This document shows positions 37,389-45,670 of a stretch of 64,000 nucleotides of DNA, in pieces. Source of the stretch: Herbinix sp. (GTDB lineage: Bacteria > Bacillota > Clostridia > Lachnospirales > Lachnospiraceae); contig JAQSYO010000005.1 of the NCBI GenBank assembly GCA_029256105.1, forward strand, positions 1 to 64,000. The letters are read 5' to 3'. A program made the position numbers and the translations under genes. Each line of letters starts with the position of its first letter. Positions within the stretch are counted from its first letter, which is position 1. The notes under the pieces were generated by a model. The model was not told where the DNA came from, did no database searches, and saw nothing but the letters and a program-made list of their open reading frames with translations.

Positions 37389-37553
37389 TAAATATATTTT
37401 TTGCAAGATAGTTTTAGTGGAATTACGAAGAGATAAGGTAATTATAAGACAACCTATTTCATTATAAAGTAATGAAAATAAATTCCTGTTAATAAGCATT
37501 TGAAAGTCAGTCTTTTAATTAATGGTCAATTTTTAAAAATATTAAAAATTACT

Positions 37554-37582
37554 TTGACAGGTAGAGTAATTCGTGATATTAT
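37554..37582 (+). promoter_or_regulatory. Strong promoter of the PadR operon
   Basis: A perfect -35 (TTGACA, 37554-37559) and a TATTAT -10 (37577-37582) are separated by exactly 17 bases. This is the best sigma-A promoter in the window. Confidence 0.85.
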
Positions 37583-37602
37583 TACATCAGACAGAACACT
37601 AC

Positions 37603-37620
37603 CTGATAGAGTACTATCAG
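37603..37620. promoter_or_regulatory. Palindromic operator, probable PadR site
   Basis: CTGATAG and CTATCAG form a perfect inverted repeat with a 4-base spacer, just downstream of the expected transcription start. The placement suggests that PadR represses its own operon. Confidence 0.7.
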
Positions 37621-37657
37621 ACATAGGTATAATTGAATAATTTAGGGAGGTACGTTA

Positions 37658-37987
37658 TTGATTAGCAGCGATATTATTAGAGGACATCTGGATGCGATTA
37701 TTTTACGGTTAATTTATGAAAAGGATTGCTATGGCTATGAAATTTCAAATGAAATCATTGACCGAACCAATAATGAATTTAAAATTAAAGAAGCATCATT
37801 GTATGCAGTTTTACAGCGTCTTGTTAAAAAAGAGCTTATAGAATCTTATCTCGGCGATATATCGCTGGGGGGAAGACGCCGTTACTACCGCATCACCAAT
37901 CTTGGCCGAGCGTATTTGAAGGAAGAAATCCGCAATTGGCACAACGCACGTGATATTATCAATATTTTTATGGAGGGTTTGCAATGA
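37658..37987 (+). CDS. PadR family transcriptional repressor
   Basis: The 109-residue protein has the PadR winged helix: RGHLDAIILRLIYEKDCYGYEIS, EASLYAVLQRLVKKELIES and GGRRRYYRITNLGRAYL. A TTG start follows GGGAGG at 7 bases. Its stop overlaps the next start by four bases (ATGA), implying translational coupling with the membrane proteins. PadR proteins release DNA on binding small hydrophobic compounds or respond to membrane stress, so the downstream membrane proteins are the likely output. The operator at 37603-37620 supports autoregulation. Confidence 0.93.
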   Translation: MISSDIIRGHLDAIILRLIYEKDCYGYEISNEIIDRTNNEFKIKEASLYAVLQRLVKKELIESYLGDISLGGRRRYYRITNLGRAYLKEEIRNWHNARDIINIFMEGLQ

Positions 37988-38574
37988 ACGAAATTGATAT
38001 GCAAATTAAAAAGCTTTTTGAAGACATACCGGAAAGTAATCGCAAAAATGAAATAATTCAAGAGATTGCCCAGAATCTCAATGAAAAAGTATCAGATCTT
38101 GTTTTAAATGGACGGACGAGAGAGCAGGCAATAAAACAGGCTGTAGATGATTTTGGTGATATTGATGACTTAAAAAAGGAATTTATAGATAGCACCAGGG
38201 TTGCTGAAAGTAAAAGAAATGGACTTTCACTTGCATTTTCGATTTGGGGTGGAAGCCTAATCCTTGCACTTTTCTTATTTATCAATTTTTATTATACGCC
38301 AAATACAATATGGTTTGTTTATCCGGCGTTTGCTGTCGTATGGTGGCCAATGACAATGTACTTTCAATGGTATCGTAATAAATATGATGTACCGATCGGT
38401 TTTGCGTTCTCAGTTTGTAGCTTTGTTCTTATTATAGGGCTTATGTTATTTATTAATATTTATTATACACCTAAAATCTTATGGTTTGTTTACCCGATCT
38501 TTGCAATAATCTGGTGGCCATTAGCGATGTTTTTTCATAATCTGCGCCAAAAAACCAGAGAAGAGGTGGAATAG
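37984..38574 (+). CDS. HAAS-like membrane protein with two WWP-containing repeats
   Basis: The 196-residue product has a soluble, charged N-terminal ~75-residue region (IPESNRKNEIIQEIAQNLNEKV; QAVDDFGDIDDLKKEF) that resembles the HAAS/permease-prefix domain commonly found next to PadR regulators. Four membrane segments follow, arranged as two repeats with the motifs IWFVYPAFAVVWWPM and LWFVYPIFAIIWWPL, each preceded by LFIN(F/I)YYTP. It overlaps the PadR gene by four bases. The same repeat continues in the next gene. Function is unknown; a PadR-controlled membrane-stress role is an inference. Confidence 0.85.
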   Translation: MNEIDMQIKKLFEDIPESNRKNEIIQEIAQNLNEKVSDLVLNGRTREQAIKQAVDDFGDIDDLKKEFIDSTRVAESKRNGLSLAFSIWGGSLILALFLFINFYYTPNTIWFVYPAFAVVWWPMTMYFQWYRNKYDVPIGFAFSVCSFVLIIGLMLFINIYYTPKILWFVYPIFAIIWWPLAMFFHNLRQKTREEVE

Positions 38575-39558
38575 ATGATAAGCACGAATAATACAGTGAA
38601 AAATCGACGTAATTCAATCGGTTTTTCACTTGCCGGAAGCCTTATTATAATTCTGTTTTTTGCATTTGTTAATTTTTCCACTGGGGTGAGCTTCCCATGG
38701 TTTATATTTCCGGCATATGCAGTACTTTGGTGGCCAATTATGACAATCTTTATCGGAAAGCATTCCATGAAGATGCTTTCCCTGGTCGGTAGTCTTGTTA
38801 CTATTGCCTTATTGGTTATGATCAATTACTTGACCTCATGGAACTACCCATGGTTTTTATTCCCCTCCTTTGCAATACTCTGGTGGCCTATCGCAGCTTT
38901 ATTTGGATTAAAGCGGAGTAAAGTATTTTCGATTGTTGGAAGCATCGCGCTAATCACATTTTTTATCATCATAAATTATGTCACATCACCCTTCGAAATA
39001 TGGTTTTATTACCCCATTTTCGTTGTAATCTGGTGGCCGTTAAGTGTATTTTACTCTGGACCGAACACAATCAAGGGCTACTCAGTACTTGGAGCTTTAA
39101 TCATTATTTCTTTTCTGACGTTAGATAATTTTATCAATTTACCATATTGCCCATGGGCGTTGTTAACCTATTTTCCAGTCTTGATGTGGCCGGTGGGAGT
39201 GCTACTTGGAAGGCGGTTAGGCAAGCTTACTACAGCCTTGATTATTGGTTTTTCCGGTATTGTTTATTATGTAATATTGAATATGTTAGTATTCAAAGGC
39301 TTTCCATGGGCTATGTTCCCCGCATATGCACTTTTATGGTATCCCTTAGCAATCGCTTTTGCAAAACGCGGAAGCTCACTAATCTTTTCCGTCAGTGGAT
39401 CTATATTGAGCGCAGCTCTGTTTATTGCAGTCAACTTTTTTACCACACCACACAACATTTGGGCAGTCTATCCGATTTTTGCTCTTATATGGTGGCCTCT
39501 TTCTATTTATTATTTTGTGTACCTACATCAAAAAGTTGACTCTGTGCGTAGGCATTGA
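38575..39558 (+). CDS. Polytopic membrane protein built of six WWP-containing repeats
   Basis: The 327-residue product begins directly after the preceding stop, with GAGGTGG in the end of that gene as ribosome binding site. It consists almost wholly of six repeats of about 50 residues, each a pair of membrane segments: a GS-starting first helix, a short polar loop, then (F/Y)PW(F/A)xFPxxAxLWWPI. The motif is seen as LWWPIMTIF, LWWPIAALF, IWWPLSVFY, LMWPVGVLL, LWYPLAIAF and IWWPLSIYY. About twelve transmembrane segments are expected. I do not recognise a transporter family. The same unit occurs twice in the upstream gene, so the pair arose by repeated duplication. Confidence 0.85.
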   Translation: MISTNNTVKNRRNSIGFSLAGSLIIILFFAFVNFSTGVSFPWFIFPAYAVLWWPIMTIFIGKHSMKMLSLVGSLVTIALLVMINYLTSWNYPWFLFPSFAILWWPIAALFGLKRSKVFSIVGSIALITFFIIINYVTSPFEIWFYYPIFVVIWWPLSVFYSGPNTIKGYSVLGALIIISFLTLDNFINLPYCPWALLTYFPVLMWPVGVLLGRRLGKLTTALIIGFSGIVYYVILNMLVFKGFPWAMFPAYALLWYPLAIAFAKRGSSLIFSVSGSILSAALFIAVNFFTTPHNIWAVYPIFALIWWPLSIYYFVYLHQKVDSVRRH

Positions 39559-39574
39559 GCCACGTAAATAAAAA

Positions 39575-39612
39575 ATTCCGGAACATGCTTGCATGTTACC
39601 GGAACTTTTTTT
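39575..39612 (+). terminator. Intrinsic terminator of the PadR operon
   Basis: TTCCGG with ACATGC pairs with GCATGT and CCGGAA, followed by CTTTTTTT. It is convergent with the AraC gene on the minus strand. Confidence 0.92.
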
Positions 39613-39660
39613 ATCTTTATAAGGTTGTGGAATCCATTATAGATATAATTAATTACAATT

Positions 39661-40587
39661 TTAATCCAATGATCTAGATCTATATTTTGAAGGCGAAATT
39701 CCTATCATGTTTTTAAATGCTTTTTGAAAAACCACCGGATCATTATAGCCTGATATTGTGGCTATTTCTGCAATAGAAAAGGTGTCATCTTTCAATAGGT
39801 TGCAGGCTTTATTTATCTTATATTGTGTTAAATATTTCTGAGGAGGAGTATTTAAGCACTCTTTAAAGATAGTTGTAAAATAACTGCGGTCTAAGCCTAC
39901 ATAATTAGCAAGATCGGATACTGTTATATGCTCCATATAATTGGTATGAATAAAGTCGATTGCTTTACGTATGTATTGACTTTTCGTCGTATGTGGATTT
40001 ACAGAACTATTTTGTTGTACGTTTTCTACTAACTCTGCAAATAGAGAATAGAGCAGAGATTGAATCCGTAAATTTGTACTATGCGTGTATTCATTATTTA
40101 CCTTGACCATTTCCAACAAACAATTCTTTAGCTGATCACCCCTTGTAAATTGAAAGGTGGGTTGTTCTTGTGTAAGCTCCGCAAGACGCAAATAATTATT
40201 AGCATTCAAGCCATGAAAACCGACCCAAACGTATTCCCAAGGATTTTCGACGCTAGCTGAATAGATGGATACTTCATTTGGACTTAATAAAAAGCCTTCA
40301 TTTTCCTTTAAGCTATATATTTTATCTCTGACTTTCAAGGTACCTTCGCCGGATAAAACATAATGAATAACATAATGCTCGCGTATTGCCGGACCCCAGG
40401 TGTGGCCTGGAAGGCAGGAGGATATGCCGCAATAGTACATATATAATTCAGAAGAATTGGTATTGTCATGAAAATGTAATTCTTTCATGGTGTCATCCGT
40501 ATATATTTCCTTTAAATAGGAATTAAGGTTACTAATCGTTGTACCATCATTCGATAATAGCTCACAATGTTTTACTCTCATAGACAA
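39661..40587 (-). CDS. AraC family regulator of the adjacent sugar locus
   Basis: The 308-residue protein has an N-terminal cupin sugar-sensing domain (about residues 40-170, with YVIHYVLSGEGTLKV) and a C-terminal AraC domain with LANYVGLDRSYFTTIFKECLNTPPQKYL and ATISGYNDPVVFQKAFKNMIGISPSKYR. It is divergent from the catabolic genes starting at 40855, so it most likely activates them in response to a sugar. The 267-bp gap at 40588-40854 must contain the control region; it includes a CGTCT/AGACG inverted repeat at 40743-40760. Confidence 0.92.
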   Translation of the reverse strand: MSMRVKHCELLSNDGTTISNLNSYLKEIYTDDTMKELHFHDNTNSSELYMYYCGISSCLPGHTWGPAIREHYVIHYVLSGEGTLKVRDKIYSLKENEGFLLSPNEVSIYSASVENPWEYVWVGFHGLNANNYLRLAELTQEQPTFQFTRGDQLKNCLLEMVKVNNEYTHSTNLRIQSLLYSLFAELVENVQQNSSVNPHTTKSQYIRKAIDFIHTNYMEHITVSDLANYVGLDRSYFTTIFKECLNTPPQKYLTQYKINKACNLLKDDTFSIAEIATISGYNDPVVFQKAFKNMIGISPSKYRSRSLD

Positions 40588-40854: not shown

Positions 40855-42147
40855 ATGGAAAAAAATATATATAAATTTTCAGATTGTATAAGTCATTGCG
40901 GATTTCATAACCTACCCAATGGATTGGAAAAATATTTTGATTTATATGAAGAAGGTTTTCAAGGAGAAATTATTGATAAAAGCTTTCTGAAAGATTGCTT
41001 TCAAAGATTTAACGTACCGGAGGCTAAACGTAAGCTGATGGAAAATGCCTTGGGCGAAATAGAAGAAGATTCTATCTTGTGCTATTTTACCAGGTTTTTA
41101 ATCTGGGATATGTGCTTGGCTATGAAACGTTTTGAAGATAATTATTACAATAACCTAGTACCAACCTGTTTACATAATTATAAGGAATATTATCCTTTTA
41201 TTCTATTACTTGCTTGCGTAAAGCCTTCTATGGAGATGCTTCAAAATAAAGGTGTCCCTTTGAAGTATTATGAAGAGATACCATATACACCTATGAGAAA
41301 GCAATTTGATAAATGGATATTGCAAGAGGATATCACAGTGAGTGACTTCCCTTGGGATATCAATTTTTATACGTGTTCCATTTTTCTAATGGATAGATTT
41401 TACTTTATACCCTGTAAGCTTGAAGAAGGACTAAGTGTATATCGAAACAGAGTCAATAACCGTGTTGTAGCGCTCCAACATGCAAATAATGAATTTAGGA
41501 GGGATGGGCAGTTTAATGGTACGAATGAGGTTTTTGATGATAAGGGTAAATTTTTGTCACAATGGAACGAAGATGACCTTTCGATACGGGCAAATGCAAT
41601 TAATCCTATGGGTTATGTAGAACAGACTCCGGTTATTTTGCTAAAAGCAGATTGGAGGTTAACCTTGACGAAAGGAGACATTTTGTTGGCGTTCCATATC
41701 CCGGATGGTCCTGGATATACACCTCAAAGAGTTAGAAATTCTATGGAGCTTGCACTAGATTTCTATGCAACCTACTTTAGAGAGCTGGGCATCAAAGGGT
41801 TTTGGAGTGAAAGTTGGCTTTATGACTCCCGAATTTCATTGGTTATGGAATATGAGAAAAGCAATATTGTGAAAGTCCAAAGTCAGTTTTATCGATATCC
41901 TATCAAAACCAGTGACAGAATGCTACTGGAGAGAGTCTTTGGAGATAAAGATGTAGACTTGTCGAAGGTTATATGCACAAGCAACTTGCAACAGGCAATT
42001 ATAGGTTACATGAAAACAGGCGCACGGTTTAATACCATTAGCATGTTTGTTCTAAAGGAGGATGTCGTTAAAATTGGCGATTGTCCCTACATTTCCACAG
42101 ATGATATCGAGAGTTTTAAAACAGTCGTTGATAGCCATATGGCGTAA
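40855..42147 (+). CDS. GNAT-like acyltransferase-domain protein
   Basis: The 430-residue cytoplasmic protein resembles the two-part family annotated as acyltransferase domain-containing (NAT_N plus a GNAT-like C-terminal domain). The C-terminal landmark is LLAFHIPDGPGYTPQRVRNS followed by KGFWSESWLYD. It has no signal peptide. The ribosome binding site is weak, so the start is less certain. It lies upstream of the sugar kinase at 42224 and GH36, and the AraC gene is divergent. Such proteins recur in Firmicute glycan loci. Whether it acylates a sugar, an amine or a protein is unknown. Confidence 0.68.
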   Translation: MEKNIYKFSDCISHCGFHNLPNGLEKYFDLYEEGFQGEIIDKSFLKDCFQRFNVPEAKRKLMENALGEIEEDSILCYFTRFLIWDMCLAMKRFEDNYYNNLVPTCLHNYKEYYPFILLLACVKPSMEMLQNKGVPLKYYEEIPYTPMRKQFDKWILQEDITVSDFPWDINFYTCSIFLMDRFYFIPCKLEEGLSVYRNRVNNRVVALQHANNEFRRDGQFNGTNEVFDDKGKFLSQWNEDDLSIRANAINPMGYVEQTPVILLKADWRLTLTKGDILLAFHIPDGPGYTPQRVRNSMELALDFYATYFRELGIKGFWSESWLYDSRISLVMEYEKSNIVKVQSQFYRYPIKTSDRMLLERVFGDKDVDLSKVICTSNLQQAIIGYMKTGARFNTISMFVLKEDVVKIGDCPYISTDDIESFKTVVDSHMA

Positions 42148-42223
42148 GATAATGATACTAATTTACAAAAAAATCGGATGAATTTTAATGGTAAGTAGAG
42201 CAGAGGAAAGGAATGGAAAACAT

Positions 42224-43339
42224 ATGACAAGAGAGGAATATTGCTCAAAGATAGAAGAAGTCATTCGTTGCATGGCTTTTCAAGGAGATTGCGTGCATTA
42301 TGAACGCTTTGGAAATGGTCATATCAATGATACTTTTGTTGTATACACGGAACAAGAAAATAAGTCTAGGGTACGATATATTCTCCAAAGAATAAATCAT
42401 CAAATATTCAAGAAACCGGAACATCTAATGGAGAATATCGTAGGTGTGACAGACTTTATAAAATGCAAAATTGTTCAAGAGAAAGGTGATGTTGATAGAG
42501 AAACCTTGAATATCGTAAGGACGAAGTTGGGCAATACCTATTACGTAGATAGCATTGGCTCTTATTGGAGGGCTTATCTTTTTATTGAGGGGGCTACTTC
42601 CTATGAACAAGTAGAAAAACCGGAGGATTTTTATCAGAGTGCAGTGGCTTTTGGACATTTTCAAAAGCTATTATCCGATTATCAGGCGCATACTCTTTAT
42701 GAAACAATTATGGATTTTCATAATACTCCGGTTCGCTTAGCAAATTTAAAGAGAGCTGTTACGGAAGATGTATATGGAAGAGTCAGGAAAGTTATTTCAG
42801 AGCTTGATTTTATATATAAGCAGGAAGAATTTACACATGTTCTAATGAATTTATATAAAGACGGAAAGCTTCCTCTTAGGGTTACACATAACGATACCAA
42901 ATTAAATAATATAATGATTGATAATAAATCTGGTAAAGCAATCTGTGTTATCGATCTTGATACGGTAATGCCGGGTTTTTCGGTAAACGATTTTGGAGAT
43001 GCAATTCGGTTTGGAGCCACCACTGCTGCAGAGGACGAAATAAAACTGAACAAAGTTAATTTTCGTATTGACCTGTTTGAATTATATACAAGAGGTTTTT
43101 TGGAAGGTTGCGATGGAAGTCTTACCGAGATAGAGAAGAGACTACTTCCCATTGGAGCAAAGATGATGACGTTAGAATGTGGAATTCGGTTTTTAACGGA
43201 TTATTTACAAGGGGACACTTACTTTAGAATTAATAGAGAAGGTCAAAATCTAGATAGAGCTAGAACTCAATTAAAGCTCGTTTCAGAAATGGAAAAGCAA
43301 TGGGATGAGATGAAAAATATAGTGATAAAATATTGTTAA
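42224..43339 (+). CDS. Sugar 1-kinase of the aminoglycoside phosphotransferase superfamily (NahK-like)
   Basis: The ~371-residue protein has the APH kinase fold. GNGHINDTF corresponds to the nucleotide-binding strand; RVTHNDTKLNNIMID is the catalytic loop with its Asp; and CVIDLDTVMPG supplies the metal-binding aspartate. These segments match N-acetylhexosamine 1-kinases, which phosphorylate GlcNAc or GalNAc at the anomeric hydroxyl. ATG 42224 has GAGGAAAGGA about 12 bases upstream; an in-frame ATG at 42188 has no clear binding site. Together with GH36 it would turn released hexosamine or hexose into a 1-phosphate. Galactose or another sugar could equally be the substrate. Confidence 0.8.
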   Translation: MTREEYCSKIEEVIRCMAFQGDCVHYERFGNGHINDTFVVYTEQENKSRVRYILQRINHQIFKKPEHLMENIVGVTDFIKCKIVQEKGDVDRETLNIVRTKLGNTYYVDSIGSYWRAYLFIEGATSYEQVEKPEDFYQSAVAFGHFQKLLSDYQAHTLYETIMDFHNTPVRLANLKRAVTEDVYGRVRKVISELDFIYKQEEFTHVLMNLYKDGKLPLRVTHNDTKLNNIMIDNKSGKAICVIDLDTVMPGFSVNDFGDAIRFGATTAAEDEIKLNKVNFRIDLFELYTRGFLEGCDGSLTEIEKRLLPIGAKMMTLECGIRFLTDYLQGDTYFRINREGQNLDRARTQLKLVSEMEKQWDEMKNIVIKYC

Positions 43340-43348
43340 GGAGGATGC

Positions 43349-43402
43349 ATGGAGATGGCAGAACAGAAATCCAATGGGGTATCAAGTATAAATAAACAGT
43401 AA
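43349..43402 (+). other. 17-codon mini-ORF with a perfect ribosome binding site
   Basis: ATG 43349 follows AAGGAGGATGC and encodes MEMAEQKSNGVSSINKQ before a TAA. It could be a leader peptide, or the remnant of a gene whose body has been deleted. The GH36 gene follows 39 bases later with its own binding site (AGGAAAG). Confidence 0.35.
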
Positions 43403-43441
43403 ATTGAACAACTACGAATAAAGATTTAGGAAGGAAAGAAT

Positions 43442-45670
43442 ATGCCCATATTATTTCACGAAAACGCCAGAGAGTTTCATTTATACAATGATCAAATCAG
43501 TTACATAATGCAAATAATGAAGAATGACCAAATAGCAAATTTATATTATGGAAGTTGTATCAGGGATAGAGAAAATTTTAGTTACCTAGTAAGGACAAAA
43601 TATTGTTCAGAAGCTGCCTATACTTCAGTGGATGAGGACCATAAGTTATCATTGCAGTATATTCAACAGGAATATCCTTCTTATGGAACTTCGGACTTTC
43701 GTTATCCTGCTTACTGTATAAAACAAAACAATGGTAGCAGCATAACTAATTTTACATACAAATCTCATGAGATATTCCCTGGTAAAAAGAAGCTTCCAGG
43801 TTTACCTGCAACCTATGTTGAAAGCGAGGAGGAGGCTACAACCTTAGAAATAAGGCTAGTGGATGATTTAATAAATACGGAATTGGTATTAAGCTATACC
43901 ATCTTTGAAGGATTACCGGTAATTGCTAGGAATGTCAGATTTATTAATCTTGGAGTAGCTGCAATCTGCTTAGAAAGGGTCATGAGTGCCTGCGTTGATC
44001 TACCCGAGGATGATTTTACAATGGTACATTTGGTAGGTGCCTGGGGAAGAGAGCACTATGTCAAGGAAAGAGAGCTGGGTGAAGGTATTCAGGGAATATA
44101 TAGCATGCGTGGTTCTAGTAGTGCAGAGCATAATCCATTTATCGCTTTAAGAAGGAATAATACAACCCAGTTCAGTGGAGAGGTCTATGGGTTTTCTCTG
44201 GTATATAGTGGTAATCATCTGGAACAGGTGGAGGTAGATCATAATAATATGACACGTGTGATTATCGGAATTCATCCGGATACGTTTCAATGGGAGCTGA
44301 CAGCGGGAGCAATGTTCCAGACACCCGAGGCGGTTATGGTTTATTCTGATAAAGGCATAAATGGTATGAGCCAGACATTCCATCAATTATTTCGTAACAG
44401 ACTGGTAAGAGGCTACTGGAGAGATAAAGCAAGACCAGTACTAGTGAACAATTGGGAAGCGACACAGACAGCTTTTACGGAGGAGAAAATATTACAACTG
44501 GCAGCGAAAGCAAAAGAATTAGGCATTGAGATGTTGGTTCTAGATGATGGATGGTTTGGAGATCGTGACGGTGAAGAAGCCGGATTAGGGGATTGGTACG
44601 TAAAAAATAATAAGAAACTACCGGATGGAATTGAAGGTTTGGCAGATAAAATAGAGCGTATTGGCTTGAAATTCGGCTTATGGTTTGAGCCTGAAATGGT
44701 AAATAAGGATAGTGATTTATACCGGCAGCATCCGGATTGGATTATACATACCCCTGGTAGATTTCAATCACCCAGTAGATTTCAGCATGTTCTGGATTTT
44801 AGCAGGAAGGAAGTTATCGATTATATTTATGATCTAATGGATAAGTGTCTATCAAAGGCTAAGATATCCTATGTAAAATGGGATATGAACCGATATATTA
44901 CAGAGTGTTATTCCGTAACACAGCTTCCGGAGCAGCAAGGGAAGATATTCCATCAATATGTGTTAGGTGTTTATGATTTATATGAAAGATTAATAAGTAA
45001 ATACCCAACCATTCTATTTGAATCCTGCAGCAGCGGTGGAGCAAGATTTGATCCGGGAATGCTGTATTATGCGCCACAAGCTTGGGCAAGTGATAATTCA
45101 GATGCTATTGATCGTATTAAGATACAATATGGGACCTCCTATGTATATCCTTTATCAAGCATTGGAGCTCATGTGTCCCATGTTCCTAATCTGCAGAATG
45201 GAAGAACAACTCCTTTATCAACCAGGGGAAATGTTGCTTTCTTCGGAGCATTTGGTTATGAAATGGATTTGGGTGAATTAAGTGAAGACGATTCAAAGCA
45301 GGTAAAAGAGCAAGTAGAATTTTATAAAAAGTATGTTAAGTTATTTCATAAAGGAACTTTCTATCGAATGGACAATCCGTTTTCAAAGGATGTAGCTTCT
45401 TGGATGGTAATTTCTGAGGATAGGAACGAAGCTTTGGTTGGTTATTATCGATTAAATTTATCAGTAAATTGTGGATGGAAATATTTAAAACTGACCGGCT
45501 TAGATCCTGACAAGCTCTACAGCGTAAATCAGGGCAGTCAACTTTCCTATGGGGATGAGTTAATGAAGATTGGAATCATGATAGATGAATTCGAATGGGA
45601 GATGCAAAATATAGAATATGGTTCCAAAATAGTTCATTTGTTGTGTGTAGAAAATAAGGAAGTATCATAA
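43442..45670 (+). CDS. GH36 alpha-galactosidase (or alpha-N-acetylgalactosaminidase)
   Basis: The 742-residue intracellular protein has the GH36 layout: N-terminal beta-supersandwich (residues 1-~320), catalytic barrel (~330-650) and C-terminal beta domain. Barrel motifs are VLDDGWFGDR, GLWFEPEMVN, the nucleophile Asp481 in YVKWDMNR and the acid/base Asp537 in SCSSGGARFD. These agree with retaining alpha-galactosidases of the AgaA/RafA group. There is no signal peptide, so oligosaccharides must be imported first. It is the fourth gene of the locus controlled by the AraC protein at 39661. The neighbouring NahK-like kinase leaves GalNAc substrates open. Confidence 0.92.
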   Translation: MPILFHENAREFHLYNDQISYIMQIMKNDQIANLYYGSCIRDRENFSYLVRTKYCSEAAYTSVDEDHKLSLQYIQQEYPSYGTSDFRYPAYCIKQNNGSSITNFTYKSHEIFPGKKKLPGLPATYVESEEEATTLEIRLVDDLINTELVLSYTIFEGLPVIARNVRFINLGVAAICLERVMSACVDLPEDDFTMVHLVGAWGREHYVKERELGEGIQGIYSMRGSSSAEHNPFIALRRNNTTQFSGEVYGFSLVYSGNHLEQVEVDHNNMTRVIIGIHPDTFQWELTAGAMFQTPEAVMVYSDKGINGMSQTFHQLFRNRLVRGYWRDKARPVLVNNWEATQTAFTEEKILQLAAKAKELGIEMLVLDDGWFGDRDGEEAGLGDWYVKNNKKLPDGIEGLADKIERIGLKFGLWFEPEMVNKDSDLYRQHPDWIIHTPGRFQSPSRFQHVLDFSRKEVIDYIYDLMDKCLSKAKISYVKWDMNRYITECYSVTQLPEQQGKIFHQYVLGVYDLYERLISKYPTILFESCSSGGARFDPGMLYYAPQAWASDNSDAIDRIKIQYGTSYVYPLSSIGAHVSHVPNLQNGRTTPLSTRGNVAFFGAFGYEMDLGELSEDDSKQVKEQVEFYKKYVKLFHKGTFYRMDNPFSKDVASWMVISEDRNEALVGYYRLNLSVNCGWKYLKLTGLDPDKLYSVNQGSQLSYGDELMKIGIMIDEFEWEMQNIEYGSKIVHLLCVENKEVS

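Follow-up and report, generated by a model that had tools for sequence, protein, structure and literature searches.

Why would a bacterium build two adjacent membrane proteins from one short helical hairpin, and place both behind a regulator of the PadR family? The question is raised by a 64,000-nucleotide stretch of DNA from Herbinix sp. (contig JAQSYO010000005.1, positions 1 to 64,000; hereafter the window). An initial annotation of this stretch, made from the letters alone, described a membrane module in three parts: padR, a gene for a membrane protein with two copies of a two-helix repeat (gene A), and a gene for a second protein made of six copies of the same repeat (gene B). We find the three genes in that order on the plus strand at 37658-39558, and we conclude that padR-A-B is a real, conserved and rare operon. 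Some of its elements belong to what is already known: permease prefix domain 1 in A, the published pairing of PadR with HAAS domains, and the kinship of the repeat with the 2TM and DUF6320 families. What is new is a tandem hairpin array of variable length that forms a protein of its own and is tied to PadR.

Three conserved genes and one repeated hairpin

The padR gene (37658..37987; 109 amino acids, TTG start) encodes a PadR winged-helix domain (PF03551, 6.5e-19, 68.2 bits against a cut-off of 27). It overlaps gene A (37984..38574, 196 amino acids) in an ATGA at 37984-37987, in keeping with the coupling claimed between the regulator and the membrane protein. Gene B (38575..39558, 327 amino acids, 12 predicted helices) starts directly after the stop of A. 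Near its N-terminus A carries a HAAS-like domain, matched by the permease prefix domain 1 model NF038403 (residues 13-67, 38020..38184; 49.0 bits, cut-off 30). The hairpin units A1 (38230..38370) and A2 (38401..38541) follow. In B, the units are B1 (38617..38757), B2 (38770..38910), B3 (38920..39060), B4 (39073..39213), B5 (39226..39366) and B6 (39379..39519). All features lie on the plus strand unless stated otherwise.

Are these stretches copies of one unit? Compared with one another and scored against shuffles, the eight units give z-scores of 4.4 to 12.0 across all 28 pairs. Their motifs are spaced 51, 50, 51, 51 and 51 residues apart in B and 57 apart in A. The repeat therefore stands as described, with two copies in A and six in B. 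The (L/I)WWP(L/I) ending ascribed to every unit is exact in five of the eight (IWWPL in A2, B3 and B6; LWWPI in B1 and B2); A1 ends in VWWPM, B4 in LMWPV and B5 in LWYPL.

The same three genes occur in 7 of 7 distinct loci, from six Clostridia-type genomes and one Alkalicoccobacillus. A contig scan returned six loci, four of which are members: L004 (Lachnoclostridium sp. UBA1308), L005 (Ruminococcaceae bacterium UBA1320), L006 (a Clostridia metagenome-assembled genome) and L007 (Alkalicoccobacillus murimartini). The remaining two, L008 and L009, encode kinases, and two more members, G471 and G460, came from searches of genomes. Genome G1028, with the same proteins, is that of L004, and G1116 is that of L006; neither is counted twice. 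All seven A proteins exceed the NF038403 cut-off, with 31.2 to 58.3 bits (G460 just, at 31.2), and a stand-alone padR adjoins the locus of the HAAS-like gene in every case. PF03551 scores 71.7 bits in L007; the PadR proteins of the five members other than this one and the window were aligned only. Across the window, L004 and L005, the ratio of nonsynonymous to synonymous substitution rates (dN/dS) is 0.03-0.06 for padR, 0.09-0.12 for A and 0.13 for B, with dS between 0.32 and 1.68: the operon is under purifying selection. Because the unit z-scores are high and dN/dS is low in all three genes, the original observation stands.

Which residues define the unit? In an alignment of the 47 units of the seven loci, two rows of which were first re-registered, Asn19 and Trp28 are each found in 46 units, Pro40 in 45, Trp39 in 43, Trp38 in 40 and Ser4 in 38, and WWP is exact in 36. 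Asn19 and Trp28 are thus the most invariant residues, above WWP. A model of the tandem pair B1-B2 confidently predicts two helical hairpins (predicted local distance difference test, pLDDT, 90.5; predicted template modelling score, pTM, 0.76; 18-row alignment of non-overlapping two-unit fragments). The helices span fragment residues 2-26, 34-48, 55-77 and 85-100 (add 10 for B numbering), and WWP (42-44) sits close to the distal end of helix 2, which is short. Lysine and arginine take up 7 of 405 positions in the outer loops and 108 of 433 in the loops between units, counted in related, non-independent sequences with loop bounds set by offset from the motif. By the positive-inside rule, this enrichment means that the inter-unit loops are most likely cytoplasmic, which would put WWP in the cytoplasmic half of helix 2 and Asn19 and Trp28 at the outer face. 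The proposed position of WWP at a membrane interface, here the inner one, is plausible.

The number of units differs from locus to locus. A has one in L006, L007, G471 and G460 and two in the window, L004 and L005. B has three in G460, four in L007 and G471, six in the window, L004 and L005, and at least eight in L006, a lower bound since that B ends at the contig end. In a tree of the units (47 rows, 47 columns, midpoint root, 17 of 44 inner forks drawn open) the A units cluster (98/91), and a second cluster (97/92) unites the last B units and the first units of L007 and G471; these two clusters fall together under the midpoint root (95/85). In the window, L004 and L005, units of equal position are each other's nearest neighbours; the six-unit B is therefore older than these three. 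The last B unit of the window is 51-57% identical to those of L007, G471 and G460.

Beyond these seven loci the module looks rare and scattered. With a match defined by an expectation value (E) ≤ 0.001, and with the window's own genome included, matches occurred in 1 of 299 genomes of the family (single-sequence query), 3 of 34 of the genus (one false), 4 of 392 of the order (one false), 5 of 321 of the class (two of them members) and 1 of 398 of the phylum. The family of G471, a sample without the window's genome, gave 1 of 22. The order of Alkalicoccobacillus lies outside the surveys. Absence in them is not proof: the samples are not disjoint, and in the larger searches each genome had only its few best first-look candidates scored. 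A plasmid collection gave no match. Of 295 genomes in the order, 83 matched the profile of A, for the most part owing to its HAAS-like half; matches confined to the hairpin half came from the own genome, G471 and G460, with a weak one (E 2.0e-4) from G441, which has no WWP unit. HAAS matches that run into the hairpin half were checked at three places (G441, G304 and G423) and showed no WWP unit there; matches of this kind outside the check include G480, G451, G386 and G350. The scattered pattern suggests transfer or frequent loss of the module. The flanks of the seven loci (110 open frames of at least 110 codons, with the trio and its overlapping frames excluded; BLASTP E ≤ 1e-6) share one pair, at window 28279 and L004 2188. 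Since this single pair is weak, at 25% identity, the trio stands alone.

Several survey candidates were rejected as members. The match in G599 is antisense to a mutL-like gene, and that in G1036 lies inside another large membrane gene; G1119 and G1353 offer no supporting gene, and the match in G1208 is a DUF6320-like protein.

The promoter and its tandem dyads

How might these genes be controlled? The promoter reported in the initial annotation, TTGACA-17-TATTAT, is present at 37554..37582, with 11 of 12 consensus bases and a TG before the -10. The match alone is weak, since 2.5 kb contain 13 promoter-like sites against 11.4 expected. What counts in its favour is that its position is kept in the padR promoters of L004-L007.

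The aligned padR promoters share a 23-bp dyad with the symmetrised consensus ATTACTCTGTCAGACAGAGTAAT. In the window its first copy, ATTACTTTGACAGGTAGAGTAAT, covers the -35 hexamer (37548..37570) and scores 29.3 bits with a matrix whose training left out the window. Further overlapping dyads begin at 37578, 37593 and 37608 (together 37578..37630; 16.0, 20.1 and 8.0 bits), and the best 23-bp dyad elsewhere in the 64 kb reaches 10.9 bits. A 56-base matrix built without the window gives its site 36.0 and the next best place in the 64 kb -0.7. The dyad at the -35 is kept in L004-L007, whose scores are in-sample, and before both B and padR of G471. In all of these promoters a second dyad lies 33 bp downstream; in the window the distance is 30 bp, with two more dyads at 15-bp steps. 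Across the own genome, the core pattern is exact only at this promoter and recurs at one other place with three mismatches; a control pattern also had one match.

This array revises the operator first proposed. The palindrome CTGATAG-N4-CTATCAG is indeed perfect in the window (37603..37620), where it consists of two neighbouring half-sites of the dyad. In a comparison covering the window and L004-L007 it is perfect in the window only, with 6 of 7 positions at best in L004 and L005, 5 of 7 in L007 and 4 of 7 in L006. It is thus not kept in L006 and L007. We conclude from the aligned promoters that the tandem 23-bp dyad array is a conserved control site in most loci, to which PadR presumably binds.

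The clearest evidence on B comes from G471. There B lies upstream of padR in a transcription unit of its own, and both promoters carry the site (49.3 before B, 35.8 before padR). With a matrix from five other promoters, 9 kb of this locus hold these two clear sites; their reverse readings score 7.5 and 0.7 and the next best place 1.2. Since the separated B has its own copy of the operator, it probably belongs to the PadR regulon. The initial view of a PadR-controlled membrane module of one two-helix repeat is upheld.

Does the dyad go with the hairpins or with the regulator? When 27 further HAAS loci were scanned, a strong dyad turned up ahead of padR in one of them (G352, L044 936-958, 25.3 bits). 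The G352 operon resembles the present one in this dyad and in its HAAS-like membrane protein and differs in that no WWP unit is seen in that protein and no B gene in 3.4 kb; its genome gives no match to the B profile. Because the dyad occurs here without WWP units, the operator belongs to this branch of PadR and not to the hairpins alone. The window's own genome contains a second pair of PadR and HAAS-like genes (L081 926-1998, contig C21), which has neither WWP units nor an operator (best score 4.1).

Relatives of the unit and comparable systems

The initial annotation recognised no transporter or enzyme family. For B this holds: neither kind of family was found for it, no transporter family reaching a Pfam or NCBIfam cut-off; it matches no chain of the PDB by sequence, and the tandem pair has no fold match. 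All 14 A and B proteins stay below the Pfam cut-off of every membrane family. Is the unit then without relatives? It is not. When a profile of the 47 units was run against 1297 open frames of other loci, the top hit was L009, a Gemmatimonadota kinase (E 2.1e-8), and it fell inside the Pfam 2TM domain of that protein (32.7 bits). Next came L073, which had been fetched as a 2TM member (E 1.2e-5), and L008 (E 4e-5); L008 and L009 had been brought in by their likeness to B, L073 had not. The best 2TM score (PF13239) among the 14 A and B proteins is 16.4 bits against a cut-off of 24.8, and an artificial tandem consensus of the unit reaches 25.5 bits; none of four scrambled controls matched 2TM. Direct profile comparison is weak, at a probability of 62.8% with a two-sequence 2TM alignment. 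The two-helix hairpin and a reciprocal profile match lead us to regard the unit, by sequence, as a divergent relative of the 2TM hairpin, related to that family and not filed as a member of it. The 2TM proteins seen here have one hairpin, and B has up to at least eight in tandem.

The unit is probably related to DUF6320 (PF19845) as well. All seven B proteins match it weakly (E ≤ 10), at best with 23.4 bits (L005) against a cut-off of 29.9. The B profile picks up a protein of G1208 (E 1.2e-7) that is DUF6320-like, with 25.3 bits to the family model, and the tandem consensus scores 21.1. This likeness is partly one of composition, since one of the four scrambled controls also matched (13.9 bits), and direct profile comparison gave 21.3%. 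As read from their sequences, DUF6320 proteins share with B the membrane hairpins in tandem and differ in an N-terminal Cys-rich stretch. They were found in 19 of 19 genomes of the genus, the own included (L069, C27:237945-238502), in 21 of 31 genomes overall and in 0 of 14 control genomes.

Some apparent relatives were set aside. Matches to PF23521 (E 3.1e-4 in the window, 21 bits, cut-off 27) and of the consensus to a Piezo unit (E 0.011) were treated as composition. An origin of the unit from the C-terminal hairpin of ordinary HAAS proteins was also rejected: profile comparison gives a probability of 4.6% (P 0.0088), so the likeness is one of motif only. The last 70 residues of 21 of 28 HAAS-like proteins (L026-L052, L081) contain W-x3-W-(I/V)-(I/V)-(F/W), a motif that resembles the WWP unit in appearance. 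The kinases L009 (4852-6855) and L008 (4594-6837), the latter below the 2TM cut-off, have as their membrane stretch a 2TM-type hairpin like the WWP unit.

Two studied systems bear comparison; we draw on excerpts of both papers. HAAS-PadR dyads have been proposed as an alternative two-component system in which HAAS passes membrane signals to PadR (Ravi et al. 2024, PMC11237479). As in the present loci, a stand-alone PadR lies beside a membrane protein with an N-terminal HAAS-like domain, and fusions of HAAS to uncharacterised 2TM domains are mentioned. The excerpts describe no separate variable-copy protein made purely of the sensor's hairpin. The closest studied case that we found is the Listeria operon LltR-lmo0600-lmo0601 (Hauf et al. 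2019, PMC6624303). It too has three genes, is autorepressed by its PadR protein (the mutant expresses it about 100- to 150-fold more strongly) and encodes a DUF1700-type membrane protein, a likeness of organisation. Its third gene encodes a DUF4097 exoprotein, in place of the hairpin array seen here. Overproduction of the Listeria DUF1700 membrane protein impairs growth at 6 C. Among the titles listed by literature searches on PadR with HAAS, DUF1700 or permease prefix, on 2TM and on DUF6320, none concerned a PadR-controlled hairpin array.

What the hairpin arrays may do

We favour, at about even chances, an autoregulated membrane-signal switch of PadR and a HAAS-like protein, in which the sensor and the main product are both arrays of one divergent 2TM-type hairpin. 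At rest, dimers of PadR would occupy the tandem 23-bp dyads over the -35 and past the -10, and padR-A-B would be nearly silent. One or two hairpins would anchor A and keep its HAAS-like domain on the cytosolic side. If the membrane surrounding these hairpins changed, that domain would relay the change to PadR, and PadR would leave the DNA. In the burst of expression that follows, B, the mass product, may act in the membrane to spread or reinforce the response, stabilising the bilayer or binding a membrane-active compound. The same burst would yield more A and PadR and so reset the switch. This sequence of events is drawn by analogy from the HAAS-PadR proposal (PMC11237479) and the Listeria LltR data (PMC6624303). 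The initial suggestion that such an array senses or guards against membrane-active compounds is likewise an inference.

Several findings weigh against this proposal. B has no HAAS-like domain and thus no physical tie to PadR. Structure prediction, suggested at the outset for the six-repeat protein, was informative for the tandem pair; the full-length model of B has 12 helices, but its pLDDT is 51.8 (5-row alignment) and the packing of six hairpins is not readable. G460 has no dyad at the -35 and downstream sites only (17.3 and 14.9), a level also reached by four of the HAAS loci without WWP units (14.3-17.3). The Pro of the third-helix GxP motif said to define HAAS, present in the published dyads, is Ile, Phe or Leu in the seven members (F-G-D-(I/F/L)), and all seven A proteins fall under the cut-off of 27 for Pfam HAAS (PF22564: 12.9 in the window, 13.5 in L006, 15.1 in L005 and, at best, 16.6 in G471; L004, L007 and G460 are not listed). 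We call A HAAS-like because both of these fail; NF038403 still supports a domain of this kind. In Listeria, according to the excerpts, no antibiotic or disinfectant tested induced the lltR promoter (PMC6624303). The literature yielded no inducer, binding or phenotype for any member, with no search made by organism name.

Other explanations take the same genes differently. B could be a further sensor, though we doubt it: its hairpins would assemble with those of A and enlarge the sensing surface, and copy number would set sensitivity. The unit common to A and B, the joint grouping of A units and last B units in the tree and the copy numbers that differ between loci all agree with this, but a sensor that is produced only once induction has occurred would come into play late. 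A related and unlikelier scheme is an intramembrane array tunable by copy number, in which A senses, B amplifies through co-assembly of like hairpins, and the number of B units sets how strongly changes in the bilayer (tension, thickness, an inserted peptide) are read or buffered, with a kinase-free signal to PadR. It is similarly unlikely that B transports a membrane-active compound or pumps it out, with PadR binding the compound directly, as LmrR does for LmrCD, and A as a tuning subunit. The 12 helices of the low-confidence model would suit a pump, several PadR regulators do control pumps (PMC6624303), and the few weak Foldseek rows of the tandem pair in the PDB include the transporters ENT1 and EmrE. 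Yet the best of these rows has E 3.7 (2.6 among viral models), which amounts to nothing in a search that used the tandem pair, the full-length model being poor; no transporter family or PDB chain matches B by sequence; and a unit number of three, four, six or at least eight is unlike a fixed transport path.

Could the hairpins be mere filler? The array would then be a passive stabiliser of the membrane under general stress, PadR would answer a small cytosolic ligand, and A would be an anti-repressor only. Few positions of the unit are strongly kept, and dN/dS is higher in B than in padR. The last B unit is nevertheless kept distinct between distant loci, and its separation from the other units argues for distinct roles; we find the filler improbable. 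That repeat and operator are products of chance or artefact we regard as refuted. Hydrophobic sequence can look repetitive, and the contamination estimate for the own genome is 7.48%, but the unit z-scores, the seven conserved loci and dN/dS values well below 1 speak against it.

An unstudied hairpin of the 2TM and DUF6320 kind is now tied to a likely regulator and operator, and its function is thereby genetically testable. The natural series of three, four, six and at least eight units amounts to a dose series on whether hairpin number matters. With the 23-bp operator, more PadR-HAAS operons can be located; that of G352 came to light in this way.

Downstream of B a stem-loop that resembles a terminator, with one bulged base and a T run behind it, can be read by eye at 39576..39613; it is absent from the list of a program scan. 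An AraC regulator follows on the opposite strand (39661-40587), and at 40855-45670 the neighbours on the same strand as the trio encode a GNAT_C-domain protein, an APH-fold kinase (PF01636) and a GH36 alpha-galactosidase.

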